This document shows positions 1,433 to 28,631 of a stretch of DNA of 64,000 nt, piece by piece. Each line of letters starts with the position of its first letter. Position 1 is the stretch's first letter. Both the position numbers and the translations under genes were made by a program. Origin of the DNA: Acidihalobacter aeolianus (GTDB lineage Bacteria > Pseudomonadota > Gammaproteobacteria > DSM-5130 > Acidihalobacteraceae); assembly GCF_001753165.1 (NCBI RefSeq), contig NZ_CP017448.1, forward strand, positions 2,436,462 through 2,500,461, in the 5' to 3' direction. The notes under the pieces were generated by a model. It did not search any database. It worked only from the letters and a program-made list of their open reading frames with translations, and was not told the DNA's origin.

Positions 1433-5170
<3,738 letters not shown>

Positions 5171-5180
<10 letters not shown>

Positions 5181-5215
5181 AGCCTCGCTGCACATGGGCG
5201 GGCTCAGCCCCGCCC
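5171..5215. terminator. Two hairpins between convergent ybeL-type gene and manC
   Basis: Arms CGAGGC (5171-5176) and GCCTCG (5182-5187) enclose the stop codon of the zinc-ribbon gene. A second stem pairs GGGCGGG (5196-5202) with CCCGCCC (5209-5215) across the manC stop. Neither is followed by a good T run, so intrinsic termination is only a possibility. Confidence 0.4.
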
Positions 5216-6619
5216 GTAGCTGTCCTCGAAGCGCACGATGTCGTCCTCGCCGAGATAGCTGCCGGACTGCACCTCTATCATCTCGAGTTCGATCCGCCCC
5301 GGATTTTCCAGCCGATGGGTCACGCCCAGAGGGATATAGGTCGATTCGTTTTCCGCCAGCGTGAAGACCTCGTCCCCGCGGGTCACGCGCGCGGTACCAC
5401 GCACCACGATCCAATGCTCGGCGCGGTGGTGGTGCATCTGCAGCGACAGCCGCTCGCCGGGCTTGACGGTAATGCGCTTGACCTGGAACCGATCTCCCTG
5501 GCTGATGCCTTCGTAAGCCCCCCAGGGACGCATCACGCGACGGTGGTTGACGCCTTCCTCGCGTCCGGCGTGTTTGAGATGACCCACCACCGCCTTCACC
5601 TCCTGCACGCGATCGCGCGGGGCCACCAACACTGCATCCGCGGTTTCTGCGACGACGACGCCATCCAGCCCCAGCACCGCGACCAGGCGGTGGTCGGCAT
5701 GCACGTAACTGTCGCGGCAGTCCAGGGCGATGACATCGCCCTCCAGAAGATTGCCCGCCGCGTCCTTGGCACCGACCTCCCACAGAGCCTGCCAGGAACC
5801 GACGTCGTTCCAGCCCGCGTCAAGCGGCACCACCACGGCATCCTGAGTGCGCTCCATCACCGCGTAGTCGATCGAGTCGCTGGGACTGGCGGCAAACGCT
5901 TTGGCATCCAGGCGCAGGAAATCGAGATCCTCGCGCGCCAGTGCATGAGCTCTTCGCACGGCCTCCAGAATCGCCGGTGCATGGGTTTCCATGGCCTGCA
6001 GATAATGCTCTGCGGTGAACAGAAACATGCCGCTGTTCCACCAATGATGACCTCCCGCGACATAGGCCTCGGCGGTCGCCAGATCGGGTTTCTCCACGAA
6101 ACGGGCGACGCGGCGCGCAGGACCGGTGCCAATCGCATCGCCGGCCTCTATATAGCCGTAACCCGTTTCGGGACGCGTCGGCACCACGCCGAAGGTAACC
6201 AGTGCGCCTTCCTGTGCGGCCGGCAAAGCGGCCTTCACGGCAGCATGAAACGCCACCGTATCGCTGATCAGGTGATCGGCCGGCAACACCAGCATCACGG
6301 TCTTCGGATCCTCTGCAGTCAGGTCCAGTGCCGCAGCGGCGATTGCAGGCGCCGTATTGCGCCCCACCGGTTCCAGCAGGATGCGCCCCTGGACGCCGAG
6401 CATGCGCAACTGTTCGGCCACCATGAAACGCTGTTCGTCGTTGCCGACCACGCACGGCTTACCCAGGTCCGGCAGCCCCTCCAGGCGGCGCAGGGTCATC
6501 TGGAACAGGCTCAGTTCGCCGATCAGAGGGATGAACTGTTTGGGATAGGCATGCCGCGACAGCGGCCACAGGCGCGTACCGGAGCCACCGGAAAGCACGA
6601 TGGGAACGATCTGAGTCAT
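5204..6619 (-). CDS. manC: Mannose-1-phosphate guanylyltransferase / mannose-6-phosphate isomerase
   Basis: 471 residues, the usual length for the bifunctional type II enzyme (ManC/CpsB/AlgA). It makes GDP-mannose from mannose-1-phosphate, and the C-terminal domain interconverts fructose-6- and mannose-6-phosphate. The N-terminal nucleotidyltransferase signature GGSGTRLWPLSR is at residues 11-22, followed by PKQF and later RFVEKPD. The C-terminal cupin carries the metal-ligand motif QMHHHRAEHW. The ATG at 6619 overlaps the lnt stop (ATGA), so it is the last gene of the miaB-ybeZ-ybeY-corC-lnt run. It probably feeds the polysaccharide locus 10 kb away; that link is inference. Confidence 0.95.
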   Translation of the reverse strand: MTQIVPIVLSGGSGTRLWPLSRHAYPKQFIPLIGELSLFQMTLRRLEGLPDLGKPCVVGNDEQRFMVAEQLRMLGVQGRILLEPVGRNTAPAIAAAALDLTAEDPKTVMLVLPADHLISDTVAFHAAVKAALPAAQEGALVTFGVVPTRPETGYGYIEAGDAIGTGPARRVARFVEKPDLATAEAYVAGGHHWWNSGMFLFTAEHYLQAMETHAPAILEAVRRAHALAREDLDFLRLDAKAFAASPSDSIDYAVMERTQDAVVVPLDAGWNDVGSWQALWEVGAKDAAGNLLEGDVIALDCRDSYVHADHRLVAVLGLDGVVVAETADAVLVAPRDRVQEVKAVVGHLKHAGREEGVNHRRVMRPWGAYEGISQGDRFQVKRITVKPGERLSLQMHHHRAEHWIVVRGTARVTRGDEVFTLAENESTYIPLGVTHRLENPGRIELEMIEVQSGSYLGEDDIVRFEDSYGRG

Positions 6620-16132: not shown

Positions 16133-17518
16133 TCAGTCAGCCGGCTGCTTTCCCCGCGCAGACAGGAGGCAGGTCCACGACAGCAGAAAACCGGACATGA
16201 ACATGAACATCTGCCACATATGGTCCCGCATGATGCTGTCGACCAGGCTGCGCGTGAAGTAATCGAACACGACCATGCCCAGGGCCGCAGCCGGGGCCAG
16301 CCGCTCGTAGGCCAGGCCGGTCCACGCCTTGCGGAACAGCGTACCGATGAAGATCAGCCAGAGGACTAATCCCGGCAGACCCACACCATCGGTGAAATCG
16401 ATGATGCCACTGTGGCTATGATTACCGCGGGCCAGATCCGTGTGATAGATCGCATCGACGCCGTAACCGAAGGCCTGCCCCTGGAAACCCACCCCCAATG
16501 GGTAGTGCCAGATGACATGCAATCCCTCCTTGGCCCAGGCTATGCGCTGATAATTGGAAACATTGACCGTCTGGCCGTCGGGGAATTTGGGCAGCCCCCC
16601 CGTCAACCACTCGCGATTATGCGAGGTATCCAGGGCGATGGGCACCGTAGCCAGCAAGGTACGCCATCGCTGCTGGTGCACAAGGGTATAACTCACAAAG
16701 CCAATACCCAGTATCCCCACAATGGTAGCCACCATGATTTCACGCCGCCGCCTCGCCGGCGGTGACTGGCTGATCAGCACTCCGATGCTCAATAGGGTCA
16801 TCAGACCCAGCAACACGGTGCCGTTTCGCATGTCCTCGGCATAGGCCGAGAACAGCCCGCCGGCGAATAACACTCCGATGAAGGGATAACCAAAGCCCAG
16901 CACTCCAGCGCGGCCCAAACGTTTCATGATGACTTCGGCGAACAGCAACGCCAGATACATATCCGTCAGATAATTGGCCTTGTCCGGGGAACCGCTGATA
17001 CTCAAGAAATCCGTACCCTCAAGCCCCCCGAAACGCCGCATCAGCCAGCCATGCTGCACCCAGTGGACAATGTCCACCCCGACGATAAACCATACGTTCA
17101 CGGCCAACATGGCGAACAACAGCCGGATCAAGGTTTGCCGGTGATCAGGGAGCAGGCGGGCGGCCGAAACACCGATGAAGAACACGATCAGGTTCAACAG
17201 CCAGCGTGCCCGGATTTCCGTCAGAACCTTATCTGGCGCCAGGGCCCATCCGAATGCCTGGAGATACATCCACACCGTCAGCACCGCAAACACACCCCAT
17301 ACCACCCACGGGACTTCCCGAGGCCAGCGGTCAACCTGCGGCAAACGCACAAGACCTACGATCACCCACACCAATGCAAAGAACAACAAGGCGTTTCGCA
17401 AGGCAATCGTTTGTTGAATCGGCCAGATAAACATCACCGCGGTCAACAAACCCAAACCTACCCATACAAATGGGCGGGTAACAACTCTCTCATAACCCAA
17501 GACGGAAAGCCCCATCAT
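16133..17518 (-). CDS. O-antigen ligase / polymerase-like membrane protein (Wzy_C family)
   Basis: 461 residues with about 11-12 membrane segments and one long periplasmic loop (about residues 270-370). The loop ends in the family-typical [19 protein letters not shown] motif near residue 375. The family contains WaaL O-antigen ligases and Wzy polymerases, which sequence alone does not separate. In a locus with an ABC exporter and no flippase, a ligase that moves finished chains to lipid A-core is more likely than a polymerase; that is inference. It lies 228 nt after the initiating transferase gene. Confidence 0.82.
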
Positions 17519-17746: not shown

Positions 17747-19156
17747 TCAGAATGCATTTCTATGAACAAAGCCTTTGAACAAAGTCAGGAAAATGATCTT
17801 GAGGTCCAAGCCTAGCGACCAGTGCTCAATGTAGTACAGATCATGGCCTACGCGATGCTGCATTTTTTCGATGGTATCCGTCTCTCCCCGCCAACCGTTG
17901 ATCTGCGCCCACCCAGTAATCCCGGGTTTCACCATATGTCGCAGCATGTAACGGTCAATCATGTCGCAAAACTGCGCATTATGTTCAACCGCATGCGGGC
18001 GAGGGCCAACAATGGACATACGCCCTTGCAGCACATTGATGAATTGCGGCAACTCGTCAAGACTGGTTTTCCTCAACCACCTTCCGAAAGGCGTCACCCG
18101 CGGATCGTCCCGCTTCGCCTGGACAGGCCCTTCCGCCTCGGCCTCGACATACATCGTGCGGAACTTATAAATAACGATCTCTTGTCCATCCCAGCCATGT
18201 CTGCGTTGACGGAACAGGACTGGCCCGGGAGATGAAAGCTTGACCCCGCATGCGATGAATGCTATGACCGGAGACATGAGCACCAAGATCAAACTTGCCA
18301 GCAACCGATCCTCCAATGCCTTCATCAATCGATTGATGCCCTGCATCGGACTGGCGGACAGGTCGATCATTGGCACACCGACAATCTCGGTCAGGCCATG
18401 ATTCAACAGCGACAGACCAAACAGGTCGGGAGCATACCGAACATTGATCGACATGTTCCGCAACAGGGCGATGATCTGCCGCAGGTCGCCGCTACGCTCC
18501 AGCGGCATTGCAACCCACACCTCTGTCACTTGATGACAGGTGACGAATTCAGGCAAGTTCTCGATGGAATAGCGCGGGATATCCCCGTTGTATGCATGCA
18601 AATACTCAGGTGTATCGAACAGACCGAGCACTTCTAGGCCAGACCAGTCAGCCTCATGAACACGCTCCGCCAGGTTTTCCCCTTGAAGACCAGCCCCGAC
18701 CACAACCACAGGGCGTCGGTTATATCCCCGGCTTCGCAACTCGCGTAACACCCAGTAGACAACAAACCTCAGGCCCACCAGGAACAAAGCAGAGAGAACG
18801 AACCAAAACCCCAACCACAAACGCGAATAGATATCCGCCTCGTGGACAACCACCAAGGCAATTATCACCATGGCAAAAACTATGCACCAACCCAGCAACG
18901 CACGTCCCGCGGGGGCATACACACTTTTCGCACGCCATGACTTGTAAATAGACAAGGGGGGGAACACCACGCTAACCACCAACGAACCAATAATGGTCAA
19001 CGCCAGATACGCCTGCATCATGGGAGGTCTGTTTATCCCATGGAAGCGCAATTTGAATGCCAGCCATCCGGCAAAGCAAACCAAGATGACATCAAGCACC
19101 CTAGTCAACATCGCAAGTGCGGACGAATAATCCCGCAGCAATCCACGTCTTAACAT
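17747..19156 (-). CDS. Undecaprenyl-phosphate sugar phosphotransferase (WcaJ/WbaP type)
   Basis: 469 residues. It is a polyprenyl-phosphate hexose-1-phosphate transferase that would start repeat-unit synthesis on undecaprenyl phosphate at the inner membrane. Four N-terminal membrane segments (about 15-130) precede a nucleotide-fold domain (VVVVGAGLQGENLAERV, about 150). The C-terminal catalytic domain after about residue 280 has SSPGPVLFRQRR, YKFRTM, LRKTSLDELPQFINVLQG and SIVGPRP. The C-terminus KPGITGWAQINGWRG is typical of the WcaJ subgroup using UDP-glucose, though sugar choice cannot be read directly. The ATG at 19156 follows a 295-nt AT-rich spacer. Confidence 0.93.
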   Translation of the reverse strand: MLRRGLLRDYSSALAMLTRVLDVILVCFAGWLAFKLRFHGINRPPMMQAYLALTIIGSLVVSVVFPPLSIYKSWRAKSVYAPAGRALLGWCIVFAMVIIALVVVHEADIYSRLWLGFWFVLSALFLVGLRFVVYWVLRELRSRGYNRRPVVVVGAGLQGENLAERVHEADWSGLEVLGLFDTPEYLHAYNGDIPRYSIENLPEFVTCHQVTEVWVAMPLERSGDLRQIIALLRNMSINVRYAPDLFGLSLLNHGLTEIVGVPMIDLSASPMQGINRLMKALEDRLLASLILVLMSPVIAFIACGVKLSSPGPVLFRQRRHGWDGQEIVIYKFRTMYVEAEAEGPVQAKRDDPRVTPFGRWLRKTSLDELPQFINVLQGRMSIVGPRPHAVEHNAQFCDMIDRYMLRHMVKPGITGWAQINGWRGETDTIEKMQHRVGHDLYYIEHWSLGLDLKIIFLTLFKGFVHRNAF

Positions 19157-19451: not shown

Positions 19452-20582
19452 TCAACCCTTCCGACCATACAAATCACTTACCAAGGCCGTTATCTGCGCG
19501 GAGAAACGCGGCACAGAAAAGCGGTCAGCGTTCCTTCGACAAGTCACATAGTCAATTTGATCCGCACATGCTTCAAAGGTTTCAATTGCGTTGCGCAAGG
19601 AAATCTCTGCTTGTTCGCGAAAAAAAACCCCAGTGGGTGATGACGTATCGATCCCATTAACGGACTCCAGCACGCCACCTCGGCCATACGCGATTACCGG
19701 CGTTCCGCATGCTTGTGCCTCAACAGGCGCAATTCCGAAGTCCTCCTCTGCGGCAAATACGAAGGCCTTGGCGCGTCCCATCAGCACCGCCAGTTCTGCC
19801 GCTGACTTGTATCCCAGTAAACTGATGTTGGAACAACCTGCTGCGATTCGTTGGATCTTCGCAGAATCTGGGCCGTCGCCCACCACCCTCAGTTGACGCG
19901 ACGGCATCTCCGCAAAAGCGCGCACGATCATATCGATACGTTTATAGGGCACCAGCCGCGAAGCTGTAAGGTAGAAATCCTCCTTGTCCGTACAAAGGGG
20001 AAAGGCTTCGGTGTCCACCGGCGGGTAGATCACCTCGGCCTCCCGTCGATACGTTTTCCAGATTCGGCGGGCAATGAATTCCGAGTTGGCAACAAACGCA
20101 TCCACACCGTTGGCCGTGCGCAGATCCCAGATACGCATGCGGTGAAGGAAATAGCGGGCCAGCCAACCCTTCAACCCCCGATTCAGGCCGGATTCGCGCA
20201 GATACTGATGTTGCAGGTCCCAGGCGTAGCGCATGGGCGTGTGCACATAACTGATGTGCAACTGATCCGGTCCAGTAAGCACCCCCTTCGCCACCGCATG
20301 TGAGCTGGAAATCACCACATCGTAGCCCGACAGATCCAACTGCTCGATGGCCAAGGGCATCAGGGGCAGATAGCTCCGGTACCGCGTACGGGCACCGGGC
20401 AGGTTCTGAATGAATGTCGCCGTGGGTTTACGGCCGACCAGAAACCCGCGTTCGGTCTCGGGCACGAAATCACAAACCGAAAACAGGTCGGCATCGGGGA
20501 AAAGCCGCAACAACTGCTCGAGAACCCGCTCGGCACCCGCGTATACAGTCAGCCAATCGTGAACCACGGCAATGCGCTTCAT
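19452..20582 (-). CDS. Glycosyltransferase family 4
   Basis: 376 residues, GT-B fold. The N-terminal domain begins HDWLTVYAGAERVLEQ and includes SYVHTPMRYAWD, typical of the mannosyltransferase-like branch of GT4. The C-terminal domain has the acceptor signature EEDFGIAPVEAQACGTPV (the E-x7-E pair) near residue 285. It transfers a sugar from a nucleotide donor, possibly GDP-mannose given manC in the window; donor and linkage are not provable from sequence. Its ATG overlaps the preceding GT4 stop (ATGA). It is the last gene before the AT-rich spacer. Confidence 0.9.
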   Translation of the reverse strand: MKRIAVVHDWLTVYAGAERVLEQLLRLFPDADLFSVCDFVPETERGFLVGRKPTATFIQNLPGARTRYRSYLPLMPLAIEQLDLSGYDVVISSSHAVAKGVLTGPDQLHISYVHTPMRYAWDLQHQYLRESGLNRGLKGWLARYFLHRMRIWDLRTANGVDAFVANSEFIARRIWKTYRREAEVIYPPVDTEAFPLCTDKEDFYLTASRLVPYKRIDMIVRAFAEMPSRQLRVVGDGPDSAKIQRIAAGCSNISLLGYKSAAELAVLMGRAKAFVFAAEEDFGIAPVEAQACGTPVIAYGRGGVLESVNGIDTSSPTGVFFREQAEISLRNAIETFEACADQIDYVTCRRNADRFSVPRFSAQITALVSDLYGRKG

Positions 20583-21703
20583 TTTCCAGCCTCAGCCAGA
20601 ACTTGGCGATAGATCTCAAATGTTGCTTGGGCCATTGTTTTGGCAGAATAGCGCTCACGCTGCACCCGGCGGCTTCGCTCACCCAATCCGCAGCGAAGTG
20701 TCTGATCTTCGGCTAAGCGAGCAACTCGGCGTATCGCCTCAGCAAACTCGCCCAAGGGGTACAAGAATCCACCACCCTCGCTTACGAGAGAGTGATGCCC
20801 AGTCACATTGCTTGCCACCACCGGCAAGCCAAGTGACATCGCCTCAAGTATCGCTAATGGCAAGCCTTCCCAACGCGAAGTAGATAGATATACATCAGCG
20901 ATGGCCAGCCAAGGCAAAGGCTCATTGCGCTGTCCGAGAAGTCTGATATTCGCCAAACCGTCTGCACGCGCCCGCCTGTCCAGTGCTGCCGAGTCTTCGC
21001 CATCCCCGATCCAAACAAAAAGGCATGCTGGTAGAGCCTTGGCCACCTCGAAGGCTTCCGCCATATTCTTCTGAAAGTCGAATCGGCTAAGCGTCGCCAC
21101 GACAATCTGACCCTCGTCGATCCCAAGGCGATTTCTGTATTCCCGCCGCCAGCGCAACCGATCTGCCTCTGCTACTGACTCAACGCCGTTGACAATCACA
21201 CCCGACTGATTTCTCCGCCAAAGTCCTTCTGCACGAGCCATATCGCGCTCTTCCTGTGAGACATAAACAATGTGATCGATCCAAAACGATGAAAGATTTT
21301 CATAGAGCTTATAGAGTGATTTTCTGAAGGGGTTGTACTGTGCAACATGCACCCCATGTGGCGTGTGAACGCAGGGCTTGCGCAGTGTAACTGCGAGGAA
21401 TCTCGCATACACACCAGCACCCTTGCCGTGCGAATGAATCACATCGACACCCTGCTTTCTGGCCCAGACGATCAGTTGCAACGCACTGCTCAGATCAAAT
21501 CGCCGATGCGGAATGGTAAATATCCGCCCATCAGTCAACTCAGCGAAACGTGAGGCATAAGGTGGCTCGTCTGGGCAAGCCACTAAAGCTCGTCCGTCAG
21601 AGGGTAAATTTTTTAGCAACAATTCGATGTGACGTGGACCGCCACCGTGGTCTGCGCGTACTGAAAGGATCAGAATGGAAATCGGTTTTACCGCATGATT
21701 CAT
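20579..21703 (-). CDS. Glycosyltransferase family 4
   Basis: 374 residues from the ATG at 21703, which overlaps the upstream GT2 stop in ATGA; the open frame extends slightly further but this coupling and the N-terminus favour 21703. The GT-B fold starts with SILILSVRADHGGGPRHIELLL and the HSHGKGAGVYARF loop. The C-terminal signature is EGLPLAILEAMSLGLPVV (E-x7-E). It is a retaining sugar transferase acting at the cytoplasmic face of the inner membrane. Sugar specificity is unknown. The 4-nt overlaps on both sides show a tightly coupled GT2-GT4-GT4 block. Confidence 0.9.
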   Translation of the reverse strand: MNHAVKPISILILSVRADHGGGPRHIELLLKNLPSDGRALVACPDEPPYASRFAELTDGRIFTIPHRRFDLSSALQLIVWARKQGVDVIHSHGKGAGVYARFLAVTLRKPCVHTPHGVHVAQYNPFRKSLYKLYENLSSFWIDHIVYVSQEERDMARAEGLWRRNQSGVIVNGVESVAEADRLRWRREYRNRLGIDEGQIVVATLSRFDFQKNMAEAFEVAKALPACLFVWIGDGEDSAALDRRARADGLANIRLLGQRNEPLPWLAIADVYLSTSRWEGLPLAILEAMSLGLPVVASNVTGHHSLVSEGGGFLYPLGEFAEAIRRVARLAEDQTLRCGLGERSRRVQRERYSAKTMAQATFEIYRQVLAEAGK

Positions 21704-22644
21704 AAGGCCCAGTACCAAGCCAGCGTCCTCAACACACCTTCTTTGCGCAGGCCAAGCTGTATCGCCGATAACCGTTTTTGGAATCCACCTTGTCGTGAAA
21801 GATTTAGAATTGACTCTAGGATATTGCGCTTTTCAGTGGGGATTTGATCGGCTAAACGCCGATTCAACACCTCCATCTGAAGCAGTGCCTCATTCCAACC
21901 AGCACGAATCCGTCGCCGCAATGCAAAAGGCCCATGGCCAAATTTTTTCACCACGCCACGAATATTCCAGGCATCTGCACCCAAGGTGTTCATTGTATGC
22001 TGTCGGTAATCCACCAATTGCTTTGGTATGCAGAGGACTTCCCCTAGCGCACTCGCTACCAGCAAAAGCCACCAATCGTGCATCACCGCTTCATTCGGGA
22101 TAGGAAGGGCTGCTTTTAACAGCGCGCGGTTAGCCAGCATGGTGCATCCAGGCACTGTGTTTTGCACTAATACACGTTTGAAGTCCCTACCACTCTGCAG
22201 ATCAAACCCCTGCCAACGGGAAGCTGAAGGCGCCAACAAACAACCATCGGAATCAATGAGTCGAGCATCGCTATAAACCAGGAGAGGCAATGTGCTACCT
22301 CTCCGTTCTTCCATGCTCTTGGCACAGGCAACCAGTTCTTCGATTTTGTTGTCATGCCAGAGATCATCCTGATCCGCAAGCAGCGTATAGTCGCCAGCGC
22401 TGTGGGACAAGATACGTCCGAAGTTCGCAGCCGCTCCAAGTGAGCCAGCATCATCCTTCAGGAATTCGATCGGCATACCCTCGTTACGCTCGCGCTCAAG
22501 GATCGAATACGTCTCGTCCATCGAACCGTCGTCACGAACCAGGATGCTGTCTGGCACCAGAGTCTGCCCGGCAATCGAGGCCAGCAACGCAGGCAGGAAC
22601 CGGGCGCCGTTGAAACTGGCTAAAGCGATATCAATGCGACGCAT
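21700..22644 (-). CDS. Glycosyltransferase family 2 (rhamnosyltransferase-like)
   Basis: 314 residues, single GT-A domain. It starts IDIALASFNGARFLPALLAS, has the nucleotide-binding DDGS near residue 39 and the metal-binding DQDD in LLADQDDLWH near residue 95. The arrangement ADQDDLW is common in rhamnosyltransferase-like GT2 enzymes of O-antigen loci. No hydrophobic segment is evident, so it should be cytosolic or membrane-associated. It starts 49 nt after the 1334-residue fusion gene and overlaps the next GT4 by 4 nt. Confidence 0.88.
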   Translation of the reverse strand: MRRIDIALASFNGARFLPALLASIAGQTLVPDSILVRDDGSMDETYSILERERNEGMPIEFLKDDAGSLGAAANFGRILSHSAGDYTLLADQDDLWHDNKIEELVACAKSMEERRGSTLPLLVYSDARLIDSDGCLLAPSASRWQGFDLQSGRDFKRVLVQNTVPGCTMLANRALLKAALPIPNEAVMHDWWLLLVASALGEVLCIPKQLVDYRQHTMNTLGADAWNIRGVVKKFGHGPFALRRRIRAGWNEALLQMEVLNRRLADQIPTEKRNILESILNLSRQGGFQKRLSAIQLGLRKEGVLRTLAWYWAL

Positions 22645-22693: not shown

Positions 22694-25600
22694 TCAGGCC
22701 GACATCAATATCCGCATGCGCCCTACCCATCCTGGATGCCCGGGCACCTGGTGCTCCCAGCACTCATTCAGCCGGAAACCACAAAGCGACAGGACATGAT
22801 TTGCCTGGCTCCATTCGACTCTGTAGTGCAGACGTTCACAGGCATCGATCGACAGGCCTGGCCCGGGAAACAACACGCGCACGAAACCATTCGCTTCCAT
22901 CGCCTCACCAATTAGCACCTGTCCGCTCGCTGTTTTGCCGCTTCCATCGGACACCTCGACCCGAAGTAAGCCACGGGATTTACTGACACCCGCACCCACC
23001 CCCAAAAGCAAGCCGCGTAGCATTCCCGTCAACTCGCGTGGCCAGACCAACGAGCCACTGATTGCGGACTCCGGCTCGATGTTCAGCAATTCAAGAGGCA
23101 TCACCTCAATCCCATGAGGTGTGTCGATGGCGCGGAGATCATCCGCCCACGGCCGCAAACGCCTCGGGGGAGAGGCAAACAAACAGGACTCATCGGCGAG
23201 TGACAAATTTGGGTTGTAGGCAGGGTCATCCATCAAGGTATGTCCCCAGCGCCATTGCATATAAGCACGCTCCAGTGCGAAGCGTTCCAGCTTTGCAGGA
23301 TCAAAGTCGGAGCCGCGGGATTTGGATTCGTGATGATAAAGCCGCGCGGCGGGCATCCACACATTTCTCAATCCCATCTCGCGCAATTTCAGGCAAAAAT
23401 CGACATCATTCAAAGCGACAGACAAAGTCTCGGTCATTCCGTCTACGCTTGACCAATGTACTTTACGAACCAACAAACAGGCACCGGTAACAACGCTGAA
23501 ATCCTGGACTAGTGCTGCCCTGCCCGCATAGCCGCATGAATCCGCAGGAAAGCGGATATGCAAGTGACCAGCCACGCCACCAATCCCAGTCACTACACCT
23601 GCATGCTGGACTGAGCCATCTGGATAGAGCAGTTTCGCCCCCACGGCTCCCACGCCGTCCCTCTGAGCCAATGCGAGCAGGTCGGTCAGCCAGTCAGGCG
23701 TGATGACCTCCACGTCGTTGTTGAGCAGGCAAACGAATTCACCTTGGGCCTGGGGCACTACCCAGTTATGCAGGGCCGCATAATTGAAGGGGCGGTCATA
23801 GCGCAGCACTCGTGCACGCCCTTCATGCTTCAGGGCATTCAGATACGCCAACGTCTCCGTCTCGCAACTTTGATTGTCTACGACGATGATTTCGTAATGC
23901 GGGTATCGGGTCTTTTGGAGACTCTCGATGCAGGCCCGCAGCACATCCACATGATCACGCGTCGGGATGATCAGGCTGACCATTGGCGCACCCTGAACCG
24001 TAAAATGCGGCAATAAATAGGCACCGCCGCATACAGGCTCCAACGAAGAACGCTCGCCGAGCCGCTGTAGATGATCACCCACTGCTTTCTCGGCTGTGCG
24101 GACCGCATAGGGTTTTGCGGTAATGGATGCGGCGGTCGATTCTGCATGGACGCGCCAATGATAAAGCACCGCGGGAATATGCAGAATCTGATCCGCTGCC
24201 AACCCCTCCGAAAAACGTAATGCGAGATCCCAGTCCTGAGAGCCCTCCATGCCCTCGCGTAAACCACCGATATCGAGCATGCGCTCCCGCCTGAAGACAG
24301 CCAGATGGCATATATAGTTCTGCCCCAAGAGCAACTCCGGATTCCAAGCCGGCTTGAAATAGGGATCTTTTCGTTCGCCGTCCGCGTTGAGTTTGTCCTC
24401 ATCGCTGTAGATAAGTTGCGCATGTGGATTCAGGATAATTTCGTGCGCTACCCAATACAGAGCGCTTTCCGCCAATACATCATCCTGATCCAGCAGAGCC
24501 ACGAACTCACCTGCTGCCAGCGCCAACGCGGAATTGCTCGCAGCTGATATATGCCCGTTCTTTTCCCTGAAAGTCAGTTTGATACGGTCATCCAGGGCGG
24601 CGTAGCGCCGGAGTAGGTCGCCAACCTCAGGGTCGACCGAGGCATCGTCGGCTATGCACAATTCCCAATTTGGGTAGAGTTGCTGGCGTACGGATTCGAT
24701 CGCTTTCCGGAGATATTCAACCGGTGGATTATAAACCGGCATGATGACGGATATCAGTGGAGTGGACTCCCAGCCCGCGATGTGGTTTCTGATTGCAGTC
24801 TTGTCAGATTCATCCAGTTTGTCGTAATACCGTATCCACAGTTGGTAATCTTTCTCAGCCAGATCAATCGCCCCGATACGTTTTTTAACCATATACCGTA
24901 AGCGCGTCTTCAAAGTCATCGGCAACGGAACTGTCCGATAGACTTTGCGCATGACACGGTAGACAGAAGACCGATTTTCCGGATCGGGCGTCTTTACCCT
25001 GTTTTTAACATTGCGAAAAAACCCTACTGAAGCACGCAGAGGCGCGGTAATACGCCAAGATCTGGATCCAAGCATTCCCGCCAATTGGACACGCATCTGC
25101 TCGACTTCCCCTCTAGCCTGCTCGACTTCCGCGTTGCCCTGCTGGGCGTCTGCCTCAGTATGCTCAGCTTGTCCACTGATCAATCTGCTTGCTTGATAGA
25201 CACCGTGTCGTAACGCCACCCTGGCACGGGTTTTCAACTGAAAAAACTCTGCGACGACTTCACTCTGGGGCTTTCCCCCGATCCGCAGAACGCCCAAGCC
25301 ATGACTGTGAAAAAACTGAAATGCAGGATATTGCTTTTCGACCTCAGCCCAGAATTTCCAGACTCCAAAATCATCATGCCGCACCACAGTATCGTGAAAA
25401 AGGACAACTGACTTATCACTCAGCTTCGGCAGCCAGGACTCGAAGTCATGTTTGACTGCTTCATAGGTGTGCAGTCCGCCGATATGCAGGAGATCAACAC
25501 TACCATCCTCGATATTGCTCAATGCGTCATCGAAGCTCTTCCGTAGCAGCGTTGAAAATTGCGCATAACGTGGGTCATGATAATTTTTCAATTCAGCATA

Positions 25601-26698
25601 GATTTGCTCGTCATAGAATCCCGCTTGGTGATCTCCCGCCCAGGTATCGACGCCATAACATTTCGTATTTAGACCAAGGCATCGAACCGCCTGGCAAAAG
25701 GCCGAATAGGAATCCCCTTTGTGCACCCCTAATTCAACGAACACAGTCGGCTGGACAGCATGCATGATGGCCGGCACAAACGATAAATGCCCGCGCCAGG
25801 ATGTGACATCAGTTTTTCTGTCTGGTATGAAGCCAATACTCGGCGCCAAAAAATGACGCACCCAGTCTAAAGATACTTTGGGTTCAAAAACTCGTTGAGC
25901 GAGTAAACCCTGCACTTCTTCGGCAGCGACAGGCCATTGCCTTTTGAGCGCATCCCTTAGCATGTGTGAGTCAACTTCAGAAATAACCGACTGATTTTCC
26001 CATATAGCACCAGAGCCGAACGGGCACGAAAGTCCGATCAAAGCAGAGAAATCACCGATAACATCGTGAGAGTAAGCACGTACTAGAACGCTCTCGACAC
26101 CACCGGTCGCCTGTTCGTAATTTTCAAGCAATCTACAGTAGTCAAAATCCGAAAAGCAGGGTAGCGGATCTGTCACGGAGAAGCTTCTTGAATCAGCGAT
26201 CTCCGAAACAAAGACGCTCAAATCAATTTTACGCCTCAATCCATCAATAGAAGTATCCGAGCCAGTATCCGCATGAAGCGCCAAATATTTCTGGTATATC
26301 GTCCACAGCGATACGGCATAATCAAAAGGATCGCGAAGATACACGATCAGCTTTACTTGATAATCGTTTTTTCTGAATTCATTCAAAAATGACTTAAGCA
26401 CCTCCGGTTTATTCGAAACGCAACCGAAGTCTTCGGAGGAAAGGATTACAGACTCATGGCAAACCGATGAAAGCTCTCCAAAAAGTTCGTACAGGGTGCC
26501 AAATTCTTGCGAGAACCGCGGATCTCCACTGAGCTCCCAAGCTAGGTTATGGTGCGCACCCATATCCTGAAATGGGCGTCCAGCCAGAGGGATCAACATG
26601 CCCAAATCAAGCAGCATGTCACTTTGCTCATGCAGCCATTTCTGCAGGGACGTAGTTCCGGTTTTGTGCGTGCCCACATGCAGATACACAGTTTTCAT
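22694..26698 (-). CDS. Multidomain fusion: sulfotransferase-like, methyltransferase-like, two GT2 domains, C-terminal beta-type domain
   Basis: 1334 residues, no frameshift. Residues 1-290 resemble PAPS-dependent sulfotransferases: HVGTHKTGTTSLQKW supplies the 5'-phosphosulfate loop and YLRDPFDYAVS (120-130) the 3'-phosphate site. Residues 300-475 form a class I SAM-methyltransferase-like domain (FVELGVHKGDSYSAF at 320; LLHIGGLHTYEA at 403; VVLFHDT). A Glu/Gln-rich linker (510-545) probably coils. GT2 domain one spans 645-880 (DDAS 684, DQDD 737), and GT2 domain two spans 905-1150 (DNQS 941, NND 993). Residues 1195-1334 look like a beta-sandwich. It starts with AAGGAG eight bases before the ATG, 9 nt after the Wzt-like gene. 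It probably extends and modifies the exported polysaccharide; substrates are unknown. Confidence 0.85.
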   Translation of the reverse strand: MKTVYLHVGTHKTGTTSLQKWLHEQSDMLLDLGMLIPLAGRPFQDMGAHHNLAWELSGDPRFSQEFGTLYELFGELSSVCHESVILSSEDFGCVSNKPEVLKSFLNEFRKNDYQVKLIVYLRDPFDYAVSLWTIYQKYLALHADTGSDTSIDGLRRKIDLSVFVSEIADSRSFSVTDPLPCFSDFDYCRLLENYEQATGGVESVLVRAYSHDVIGDFSALIGLSCPFGSGAIWENQSVISEVDSHMLRDALKRQWPVAAEEVQGLLAQRVFEPKVSLDWVRHFLAPSIGFIPDRKTDVTSWRGHLSFVPAIMHAVQPTVFVELGVHKGDSYSAFCQAVRCLGLNTKCYGVDTWAGDHQAGFYDEQIYAELKNYHDPRYAQFSTLLRKSFDDALSNIEDGSVDLLHIGGLHTYEAVKHDFESWLPKLSDKSVVLFHDTVVRHDDFGVWKFWAEVEKQYPAFQFFHSHGLGVLRIGGKPQSEVVAEFFQLKTRARVALRHGVYQASRLISGQAEHTEADAQQGNAEVEQARGEVEQMRVQLAGMLGSRSWRITAPLRASVGFFRNVKNRVKTPDPENRSSVYRVMRKVYRTVPLPMTLKTRLRYMVKKRIGAIDLAEKDYQLWIRYYDKLDESDKTAIRNHIAGWESTPLISVIMPVYNPPVEYLRKAIESVRQQLYPNWELCIADDASVDPEVGDLLRRYAALDDRIKLTFREKNGHISAASNSALALAAGEFVALLDQDDVLAESALYWVAHEIILNPHAQLIYSDEDKLNADGERKDPYFKPAWNPELLLGQNYICHLAVFRRERMLDIGGLREGMEGSQDWDLALRFSEGLAADQILHIPAVLYHWRVHAESTAASITAKPYAVRTAEKAVGDHLQRLGERSSLEPVCGGAYLLPHFTVQGAPMVSLIIPTRDHVDVLRACIESLQKTRYPHYEIIVVDNQSCETETLAYLNALKHEGRARVLRYDRPFNYAALHNWVVPQAQGEFVCLLNNDVEVITPDWLTDLLALAQRDGVGAVGAKLLYPDGSVQHAGVVTGIGGVAGHLHIRFPADSCGYAGRAALVQDFSVVTGACLLVRKVHWSSVDGMTETLSVALNDVDFCLKLREMGLRNVWMPAARLYHHESKSRGSDFDPAKLERFALERAYMQWRWGHTLMDDPAYNPNLSLADESCLFASPPRRLRPWADDLRAIDTPHGIEVMPLELLNIEPESAISGSLVWPRELTGMLRGLLLGVGAGVSKSRGLLRVEVSDGSGKTASGQVLIGEAMEANGFVRVLFPGPGLSIDACERLHYRVEWSQANHVLSLCGFRLNECWEHQVPGHPGWVGRMRILMSA

Positions 26699-26707
26699 GC
26701 GGTCTCC

Positions 26708-27439
26708 TTATGTAACCTGCCTATACAGGTCACTCACGTTACCCGATGCCACGACATGCCCCTTTTCCATGCGCATATAGCGATTACAGAACTGTGCAAC
26801 TTGATTCTGTTGATGAGACACGAACAATAAGGTCATTCCACCTTTCCTCAGTTCCTCAATGCGCGCGAGACATTTCTGCTGAAAATCGGCATCTCCAACG
26901 GAGAGGATTTCGTCTGCTAGTAATATCTCAGGATCTAGGTGCACAGCGACGGAGAAGCCTAGGCGGGCATACATACCGGACGAGTAGTTCTTCACTGGTT
27001 CATAGATAAAATCCCCCAGTTCGGAAAATTCCAGTATCTTCGGCAGCAAAGAACGTGTTTCCCGATTCTTGAGCCCAAACAGACTGGCATTGAGGTAGAT
27101 ATTCTCTTCACCGGTCAAATCTGGGCTAAAACCGACTCCAAGGGCGATCATGGGCACCAATCTGCCATGGGTTATGATTCGGCCCGATGTGGGTGGGATA
27201 ATCCCGGCGATCAGGGTCAGCAGGGTGCTTTTGCCAGATCCGTTGTGGCCCATGAGCCCCAAGGCCTCCCCTCGTTTGACGGTAAGAGACACGTCATGCA
27301 AGGCCTGGAATATGTGCGGCTTTGGACGCCACCGCTTATGCACCAGGCCGACCACGCGTTTCTTCAACGAATCCTGAGCATTATGGTGAAGCACGAATTC
27401 CTTACTCACGTGCTCCACAACGATTACGTTATCGCTCAT
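26708..27439 (-). CDS. Polysaccharide ABC transporter ATP-binding protein (Wzt/KpsT-like)
   Basis: 243 residues from the ATG at 27439, which overlaps the permease stop (ATGA). Walker A is GHNGSGKST, the signature is YSSGMYARLGF (ABC motif variant SSGM, normal for Wzt/KpsT/TagH), and Walker B is PEILLADEIL. The N-terminal FVLHHNAQDSLKKRV is typical of O-antigen/capsule exporters. Unlike O9a-type Wzt (about 430 residues), it lacks the C-terminal carbohydrate-recognition domain. It would power export of lipid-linked glycan through the inner membrane. The longer open frame lies inside the permease gene and is not used. Confidence 0.93.
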   Translation of the reverse strand: MSDNVIVVEHVSKEFVLHHNAQDSLKKRVVGLVHKRWRPKPHIFQALHDVSLTVKRGEALGLMGHNGSGKSTLLTLIAGIIPPTSGRIITHGRLVPMIALGVGFSPDLTGEENIYLNASLFGLKNRETRSLLPKILEFSELGDFIYEPVKNYSSGMYARLGFSVAVHLDPEILLADEILSVGDADFQQKCLARIEELRKGGMTLLFVSHQQNQVAQFCNRYMRMEKGHVVASGNVSDLYRQVT

Positions 27440-28236
27440 AGCCGTTCTATCAGCATGGCGCCGCGCCGGTAGAACAATGTCAGACCGACCGCCAGCGAGA
27501 GCAATGCCCAACCGGCAAATGCCAGTGTGAGGTTCCAAGGTGGTACTGCGCCTTTCCAAAACAACGACTGGAATATCAAGGTAAATTCGGCTAGAGGACT
27601 TGCCTTCATGATCATCACCATCGCCGGATGGTGTATTCGAGTAATCGGATAAATGATCGGCGTCGCCCAGAACAGCAACTGGATGAACACTTCAACCAGA
27701 TGCTTGATGTCCCGAAAATCCACGTAAAGCACGCAAAGCGTGAGCATGATGCCGAATGTAAAACCGAGAAACAGCAGCAAATAGAATGGGTAGAGCAGCA
27801 TACCCCAATGCCATGTACCGCCTAGCGGGGTGAACATCAGCAACATGATACCCAGCGCCATCAGCCATAGCGTGGCGTTCACAAGCAGACTGGAAAATGG
27901 CACAAGCAGTCGGGGAAAGTATATTTTCTTGAGCAGGTCGGAATTGCCGACCAATATTTCCGAACTTTGCATCACCAGCATGGAGAAAAGATTCCAGTGA
28001 ATGATGCCAACCACCATGAACAGTGGATAGTGTGGGAGGTTCGATCGAAATACGTATGTGAAGACCACCAGATACATCAGGGTGATCATTAATGGATTCA
28101 TCAACGACCAGGCAAATCCGAGTGCAGCTCCTTGATATCGAATCTTGATTTCCTTGGAAACCAGATTGCGGACCAAATCCCGATAGGCCCACCATCGTGC
28201 TACCGGCGCGAATAAGTTCAAGGCGCTAGCACTCAT
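27436..28236 (-). CDS. Polysaccharide ABC transporter permease (Wzm/KpsM-like)
   Basis: 266 residues from the ATG at 28236; an ATG at 28248 is an alternative. ABC-2 type permease with six predicted membrane segments. Diagnostic stretches are DLVRNLVSKEIKIRYQGAAL, LGFAWSLMNPL, and FFRDIKH-like VDFRDIKHLVEV before the last segments (FWATPIIYPI). It pairs with the ATPase encoded immediately downstream and exports undecaprenyl-linked polysaccharide. It is the first gene of the locus; the upstream 395 nt must carry the promoter. Confidence 0.93.
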   Translation of the reverse strand: MSASALNLFAPVARWWAYRDLVRNLVSKEIKIRYQGAALGFAWSLMNPLMITLMYLVVFTYVFRSNLPHYPLFMVVGIIHWNLFSMLVMQSSEILVGNSDLLKKIYFPRLLVPFSSLLVNATLWLMALGIMLLMFTPLGGTWHWGMLLYPFYLLLFLGFTFGIMLTLCVLYVDFRDIKHLVEVFIQLLFWATPIIYPITRIHHPAMVMIMKASPLAEFTLIFQSLFWKGAVPPWNLTLAFAGWALLSLAVGLTLFYRRGAMLIERL

Positions 28237-28631
28237 GGAGCGACCCATCTCCGGCAATATATTTTGAATTCATACAGGCAGTAGTCATGAATATCGGGCG
28301 GTACCGAGGGGTATTCGTGTATTTTCCGTCGCGCCGACGCATATTGGCTTCCACTCTGTTACGAATAGTCCATCCGCCAGACCGTCACGGCAAATCCATC
28401 ACCGGGGATAGACACCGCAAATTGGAATTCACTGCCTTTGAGGACATCCAAAACCACGACAAATCCAATATCCCACCTCGGGAGCAATGGCACCCGCGCA
28501 TGAGGGCCATCACGAAGCCGACAAGGCCATGATAGCCGCGCAATCAAGTGATCCGGTATCGGCGGGATTACAGCGAACACATGGCTCAAGCAGCGGAAAG
28601 ACTCAGATGCCAGACGCCGCCTGCGATGCCG
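28237..28631. other. 395-nt region between ssb and the polysaccharide locus
   Basis: No convincing gene. Short open frames here have no signal or family character. AT-rich sequence on the minus strand just before the permease (around 28258-28275) probably contains its promoter. A plus-strand GGCGGTA (28297) resembles the start of an ops element but faces the wrong way. No clear ssb terminator was found. Confidence 0.55.

Follow-up and report, generated by a model that had tools for sequence, protein, structure and literature searches.

The window, by which we mean the whole 64,000-nucleotide stretch of Acidihalobacter aeolianus DNA that was analyzed, belongs to a genome of two contigs (3,363,634 and 162,484 bases) and contains a run of glycan genes, all on the minus strand, in the order wzm-wzt-fusion-GT2-GT4-GT4-WcaJ. 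The members of this run, and a membrane protein gene beyond it, are as follows.

27436 to 28257, minus strand: wzm-type ABC permease (PF01061; galactan_ABC_perm, below its cut-off)
26708 to 27439, minus strand: wzt-type ABC ATPase, 243 amino acids from the likely start
22694 to 26698, minus strand: fusion gene, 1334 amino acids (open frame, ribosome-binding site, position after wzt)
21700 to 22644, minus strand: GT2 glycosyltransferase
20579 to 21718, minus strand: GT4 glycosyltransferase
19452 to 20582, minus strand: GT4 glycosyltransferase
17747 to 19156, minus strand: WcaJ-type undecaprenyl-phosphate glucose phosphotransferase, chain initiation (TIGR03023, E value 2.2e-161, over cut-off)
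16133 to 17518, minus strand: 461-amino-acid membrane protein, possibly an O-antigen ligase (a guess from the sequence pattern)

The 243-amino-acid Wzt consists of the ATPase only and lacks a C-terminal carbohydrate-binding module, and the 461-amino-acid membrane protein had no family match above cut-off. GC content is ~0.48-0.58 inside the locus and ~0.60-0.66 outside it; lowered GC is usual for surface-glycan loci.

The fusion gene begins with an ATG at 26698, ~10 bases past the end of wzt and preceded by a clear AAGGAG ribosome-binding site, and is open in one frame for 1334 codons (the stop is included in the coordinates). The probability of such a frame arising by chance is about 1e-28, and the plus strand across the same interval contains many stops. 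A preliminary description of this DNA had proposed a single intact frame of 1334 residues, naming no strand, and had divided it into a sulfotransferase-like N-terminus, a class I methyltransferase-like domain, a coiled linker between the modifying and GT2 modules, two complete GT2 domains (DDAS/DQDD; DNQS/NND) and a C-terminal domain of beta type. The frame and all but the last of these parts were recovered in our analysis, the coiled linker as a short helical or coil segment, and the features of the encoded protein are listed below.

25844 to 26698, minus strand: PAPS-sulfotransferase-like domain, residues 1-285 (AlphaFold model and Foldseek)
26642 to 26668, minus strand: HKTGTTSLQ, residues 11-19, presumed 5'-phosphosulfate-binding loop (alignment)
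26426 to 26443, minus strand: LSSEDF, residues 86-91 (S87 and E89 invariant in the 20-row alignment)
26309 to 26335, minus strand: RDPFDYAVS, residues 122-130, presumed 3'-phosphate-binding R-x7-S (alignment)
25274 to 25828, minus strand: Methyltransf_24 domain, residues 291-475 (Pfam E value 7.4e-25 over residues 321-437)
25478 to 25480, minus strand: Gly407, codon GGC, replacing the Asp of HIDGxH (comparison with close relatives)
25064 to 25171, minus strand: short helical or coil segment, residues 510-545 (read from the sequence, which aligns with heptad-repeat coils found in relatives)
25097 to 25143, minus strand: degenerate 21-bp tandem repeat, 2.2 copies, within the coil
25034 to 25066, minus strand: SRSWRITAPLR motif at the coil end, common to coil proteins at the equivalent locus in relatives
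23999 to 24778, minus strand: first GT2 domain, residues 641-900 (DDAS, DQDD, GSQDWD)
23159 to 23986, minus strand: second GT2 domain, residues 905-1180 (DNQS, NND, NDVD)
22697 to 23158, minus strand: C-terminal tail or domain, residues 1181-1334, without detectable relatives

The GT2 family was found twice by Pfam (E value 3.9e-44, far above the cut-off), with the acidic motifs intact and starting at residues 684 (DDAS), 737 (DQDD), 941 (DNQS) and 993 (NND). For the C-terminal tail, which had been called beta-type, no relatives were detected in 369 genomes, the PDB or domain families.

The methyltransferase domain (METHYLTRANSFERASE) scored 88.3 bits with Methyltransf_24, whose cut-off is 26.3. 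Its HIDGxH motif is altered: the window reads HIGGLH, while each of 17 full-length close relatives, at 42-77% identity, reads HIDG(L/F/M)H. The Asp of this motif is one that we take to be a metal ligand, by analogy with metal-dependent O-methyltransferases sharing the fold. Judging from the sequence, the methyltransferase of the A. aeolianus fusion may be inactive, and since Asp407 is replaced by Gly, methylation by the source strain is in doubt; Gly407 could also have arisen from a single-base error in the assembly. Two distant relatives (L063 and L066) have Methyltransf_24-like domains in long frames in which HIDGxH is likewise degenerate, and degenerate methyltransferase domains of this kind may be recurrent.

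The N-terminal domain was less readily assigned by sequence. Pfam found no family above cut-off in it (PF00685 scored 13.5 bits, E value 0.049, against a cut-off of 22). A first structure model, built on five alignment rows, was too poor for telling folds apart. An AlphaFold model from 20 sequences had a mean pLDDT of 71 and a pTM of 0.70, with the core around the motifs above 90 and the C-terminal third at low confidence, and Foldseek against the PDB returned as its best match the Alicyclobacillus sulfotransferase 3rnl (E value 4.9e-4, probability 1.00, TM only 0.41-0.46). This nearest solved fold is a stand-alone protein, unlike the N-terminal domain of the fusion, to which it is about 19% identical; a search with a sequence profile also placed it second, as a weak match (E value 0.036). 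Among 22 relatives of the domain that were scanned, the Pfam families matched most often were Sulfotransfer_1, _4 and _3 (best E value 2.6e-5). In the 20-row alignment K12, T13, G14 and T15 of the HKTGTTSLQ loop and R122 are invariant, S130 is kept in at least 90% of rows, and E89 of LSSEDF is the presumed catalytic base. The spacing R122-x7-S130 is that of known sulfotransferases. The fold, the profile search, the families of the relatives and the motifs together make a sulfotransferase probable, and we use the label sulfotransferase-like because no curated family cut-off was reached. Of the checks proposed earlier for the front of the protein, the Pfam search strongly supported the methyltransferase and left the sulfotransferase below cut-off; structure prediction favored a PAPS-sulfotransferase-like N-terminus.

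It is unlikely that the domain belongs to some other class of P-loop transferases, such as the kinases of WbdD and Klebsiella O7 ORF6. Kinases and zeta-toxin-type folds came next in the Foldseek ranking, and the weak Pfam support for a sulfotransferase would fit that assignment; against it, the top fold match is a sulfotransferase, as are the three families most matched by the relatives, R-x7-S and KTGT are conserved, and a Walker A GK(S/T) is absent from the domain. Two strong APS-kinase domains are encoded in the genome, which makes a supply of PAPS in A. aeolianus plausible. Proteins with the sulfotransferase-like domain twice in tandem were seen in G006 (L005 and L006).

The coil of the window, ~36-70 residues, is short compared with the ~20 nm coil of WbdD (PMC5082667). 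At the corresponding place in relatives we found near-perfect 21-bp repeats, each encoding one heptad, with 6.4 identical copies in G001 (L007:12143-12277), 8.8 copies in G004 (L133:4193-4377) and 4.1 copies in G003 (L135:15432-15518). The 21-bp periodicity stood above local controls for G003 and for the window coil; in the case of G001 and G004, a part of the control draws probably landed within the repeat itself. The copy number differs among three related species, as a length ruler would need. Around the repeat of G004 a sulfotransferase-like frame (L133:3300-4427) overlaps a coil-tip-GT4 frame (4387-5754) in a different reading frame; the arrangement reflects either a broken frame or a pair of separate genes.

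Comparison with other genomes bears on whether the fusion is real. In the sister genome G001 the equivalent place holds a sulfotransferase-methyltransferase-coil-GT2-GT2-GT4 protein in one 1612-amino-acid frame, and in G159, from another family, a sulfotransferase-methyltransferase-coil protein of ~581 amino acids stands as a separate gene directly after wzm-wzt. The sulfotransferase-like and methyltransferase domains of the window are 62% and 78% identical to those of G001, and 54% and 71% identical to those of G159. Both front domains together were found only in the window, G001 and G159 among the genomes sampled, in overlapping sets (369 from the class, 399 from the phylum, 5 from the order and 55 related to G159). 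An assembly or sequencing error joining two genes, which the preliminary description had named as a way in which its reading might fail, is ruled out, since G001 has the matching order and a similar linker; the search across genomes that it had suggested recovered the window order, with a GT4 added. In G001 a 610-amino-acid asparagine-synthase-like gene (L007:7122-8954) directly follows the fusion gene and is absent there in the window.

Further relatives (G002, G003 and G004) keep the wzm-wzt and GT4/WcaJ backbone, their wzm and wzt being 67-83% identical, and vary in the middle of the locus. After wzt, G003 and G004 have a different sulfotransferase-like protein (weak Sulfotransfer_3 matches, E values 0.0065 and 0.013) with a like coil and the SRSWR motif, and the locus of G002 has a methyltransferase-coil protein, so that a modifying domain with a coil was present in this locus in all five genomes examined from the taxonomic order. 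The glycosyltransferase halves of the window and G001 are only 41-49% identical per domain, and those of the window are nearer to domains of unrelated genera than to those of G001. A tree test did not reject a clade of the window and sister glycosyltransferases (p-AU 0.28). An exchange of the glycosyltransferase half between sister species is consistent with these data, which fall short of showing it.

The change of Asp407 to Gly, together with the possible frame break in the coil region of a related species, could mean that the front modules are decaying in the source strain and that the glycosyltransferases work alone. We consider this very improbable, as the frame is fully open, the sulfotransferase motifs are intact and the front domains have kept the identity to the sister given above.

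Several known proteins share part of this layout. WsaE of Geobacillus stearothermophilus, a methyltransferase-GT-GT protein, resembles the fusion in lying beside wzm-wzt and in carrying two glycosyltransferase domains behind a methyltransferase on the N-terminal side; no sulfotransferase domain has been reported in it, and its methyltransferase is active, in contrast to the key-residue change at Gly407 in the window (PMC2943079). Klebsiella pneumoniae O7 ORF6, which unites a chain terminator with its polymerase in the order methyltransferase-kinase-coil-GT2-GT2, shares with the fusion an N-terminal methyltransferase, a modifying partner, a coil, two C-terminal GT2 domains and a wzm-wzt locus (PMC11231755). 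Its partner is a kinase, giving a methylphosphate cap, whereas that of the window is sulfotransferase-like and placed before the methyltransferase, and ORF6 has an internal carbohydrate-binding-module-like domain, of which none was identified in the window fusion (PMC11231755). Orthologs of the terminator are in some cases joined to GT modules and in others end after the coil; the alternation between fused (window, G001) and separate (G159) forms matches this pattern (PMC11231755). In WbdD of E. coli O9a a coiled coil holds the modifying domains off the polymerase, and the separate protein of G159 is laid out likewise; WbdD differs in having a kinase instead of a sulfotransferase, a long coil and a separate polymerase, WbdA (PMC3482155, PMC5082667). 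The length of its coil sets chain length, the terminator at the coil end stopping the chain on arrival (PMC5082667).

Methyltransferase-GT fusions are common and are often annotated just as glycosyltransferases. The earlier suggestion that two modifying domains with tandem GT2 domains were undescribed therefore has to give way for the overall layout, which is known from O7 ORF6 and WsaE; the sulfotransferase module is unusual, and the new element of the fusion is this module in place of the kinase. In the open literature we found neither a sulfotransferase terminator nor a sulfotransferase-GT fusion; such terminators may already be predicted by Mann, Kimber and Whitfield (Glycobiology, 2019), whose census of the chemistries that end chains lay outside that search.

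By analogy the fusion probably works like a terminator-polymerase. Our main reading, to which we give a probability of about one half, is that it combines polymerase and chain modifier or terminator in one polypeptide, for a sulfate-capped surface glycan exported by Wzm-Wzt. We infer that the two GT2 domains would extend a lipid-linked chain at the membrane and that the sulfotransferase, across the short coil, would move sulfate from PAPS onto the growing non-reducing end when the chain arrives there. Such capping would limit chain length, with the coil as the putative ruler. In relatives the adjacent methyltransferase would contribute a methyl group; in the source strain it is probably impaired, and methylation may have been lost there. 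A C-terminal carbohydrate-binding module of Wzt is said to be present in all characterized terminated O-polysaccharide systems (PMC11231755). Since the Wzt of the window has none, classical cap-gated export is not supported, and for this reason and because of the short coil we do not file the fusion among the classical capped systems.

The same two features would fit a different arrangement, in which the sulfotransferase and methyltransferase decorate the glycan along the chain without ending it and the coil is a linker or oligomerization element. This is essentially the idea of the preliminary description, which coupled sugar addition to sulfation or methylation on an exported glycan; the coupling is plausible given wzm-wzt, three further glycosyltransferases and WcaJ in the run, while its methylation part is made doubtful by Gly407. 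Besides the short coil and a Wzt lacking the cap-binding module of known capped systems, the frequency of methyltransferase-GT fusions is consistent with decoration, but the relatives have a heptad coil of variable repeat number exactly between the modifying and polymerizing modules, and the characterized proteins of such layout are terminators (PMC11231755). We therefore hold decoration along the chain to be possible and somewhat doubtful.

Returning to a sulfate-capping terminator fused to a polymerase, it is tempting to extend the proposal such that expansion and contraction of the 21-bp heptad coil sets chain length and the sulfate contributes to the surface charge of an acidophile near pH 2; this whole is speculative, and we think it rather unlikely to hold in every part. 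If it did, sulfation would join methyl, methylphosphate and Kdo as chemistries ending ABC-exported bacterial glycans, and natural strains differing in coil-repeat number would be test material for the ruler model. A sulfate ester, among the few groups still charged near pH 2, might then help explain acidophile surface charge.

Relatives of the sulfotransferase-like domain also occur on contigs classed as viral (L083, L093, L104 and other IMG/VR loci), and in L083 the relative adjoins a GT2-like gene.
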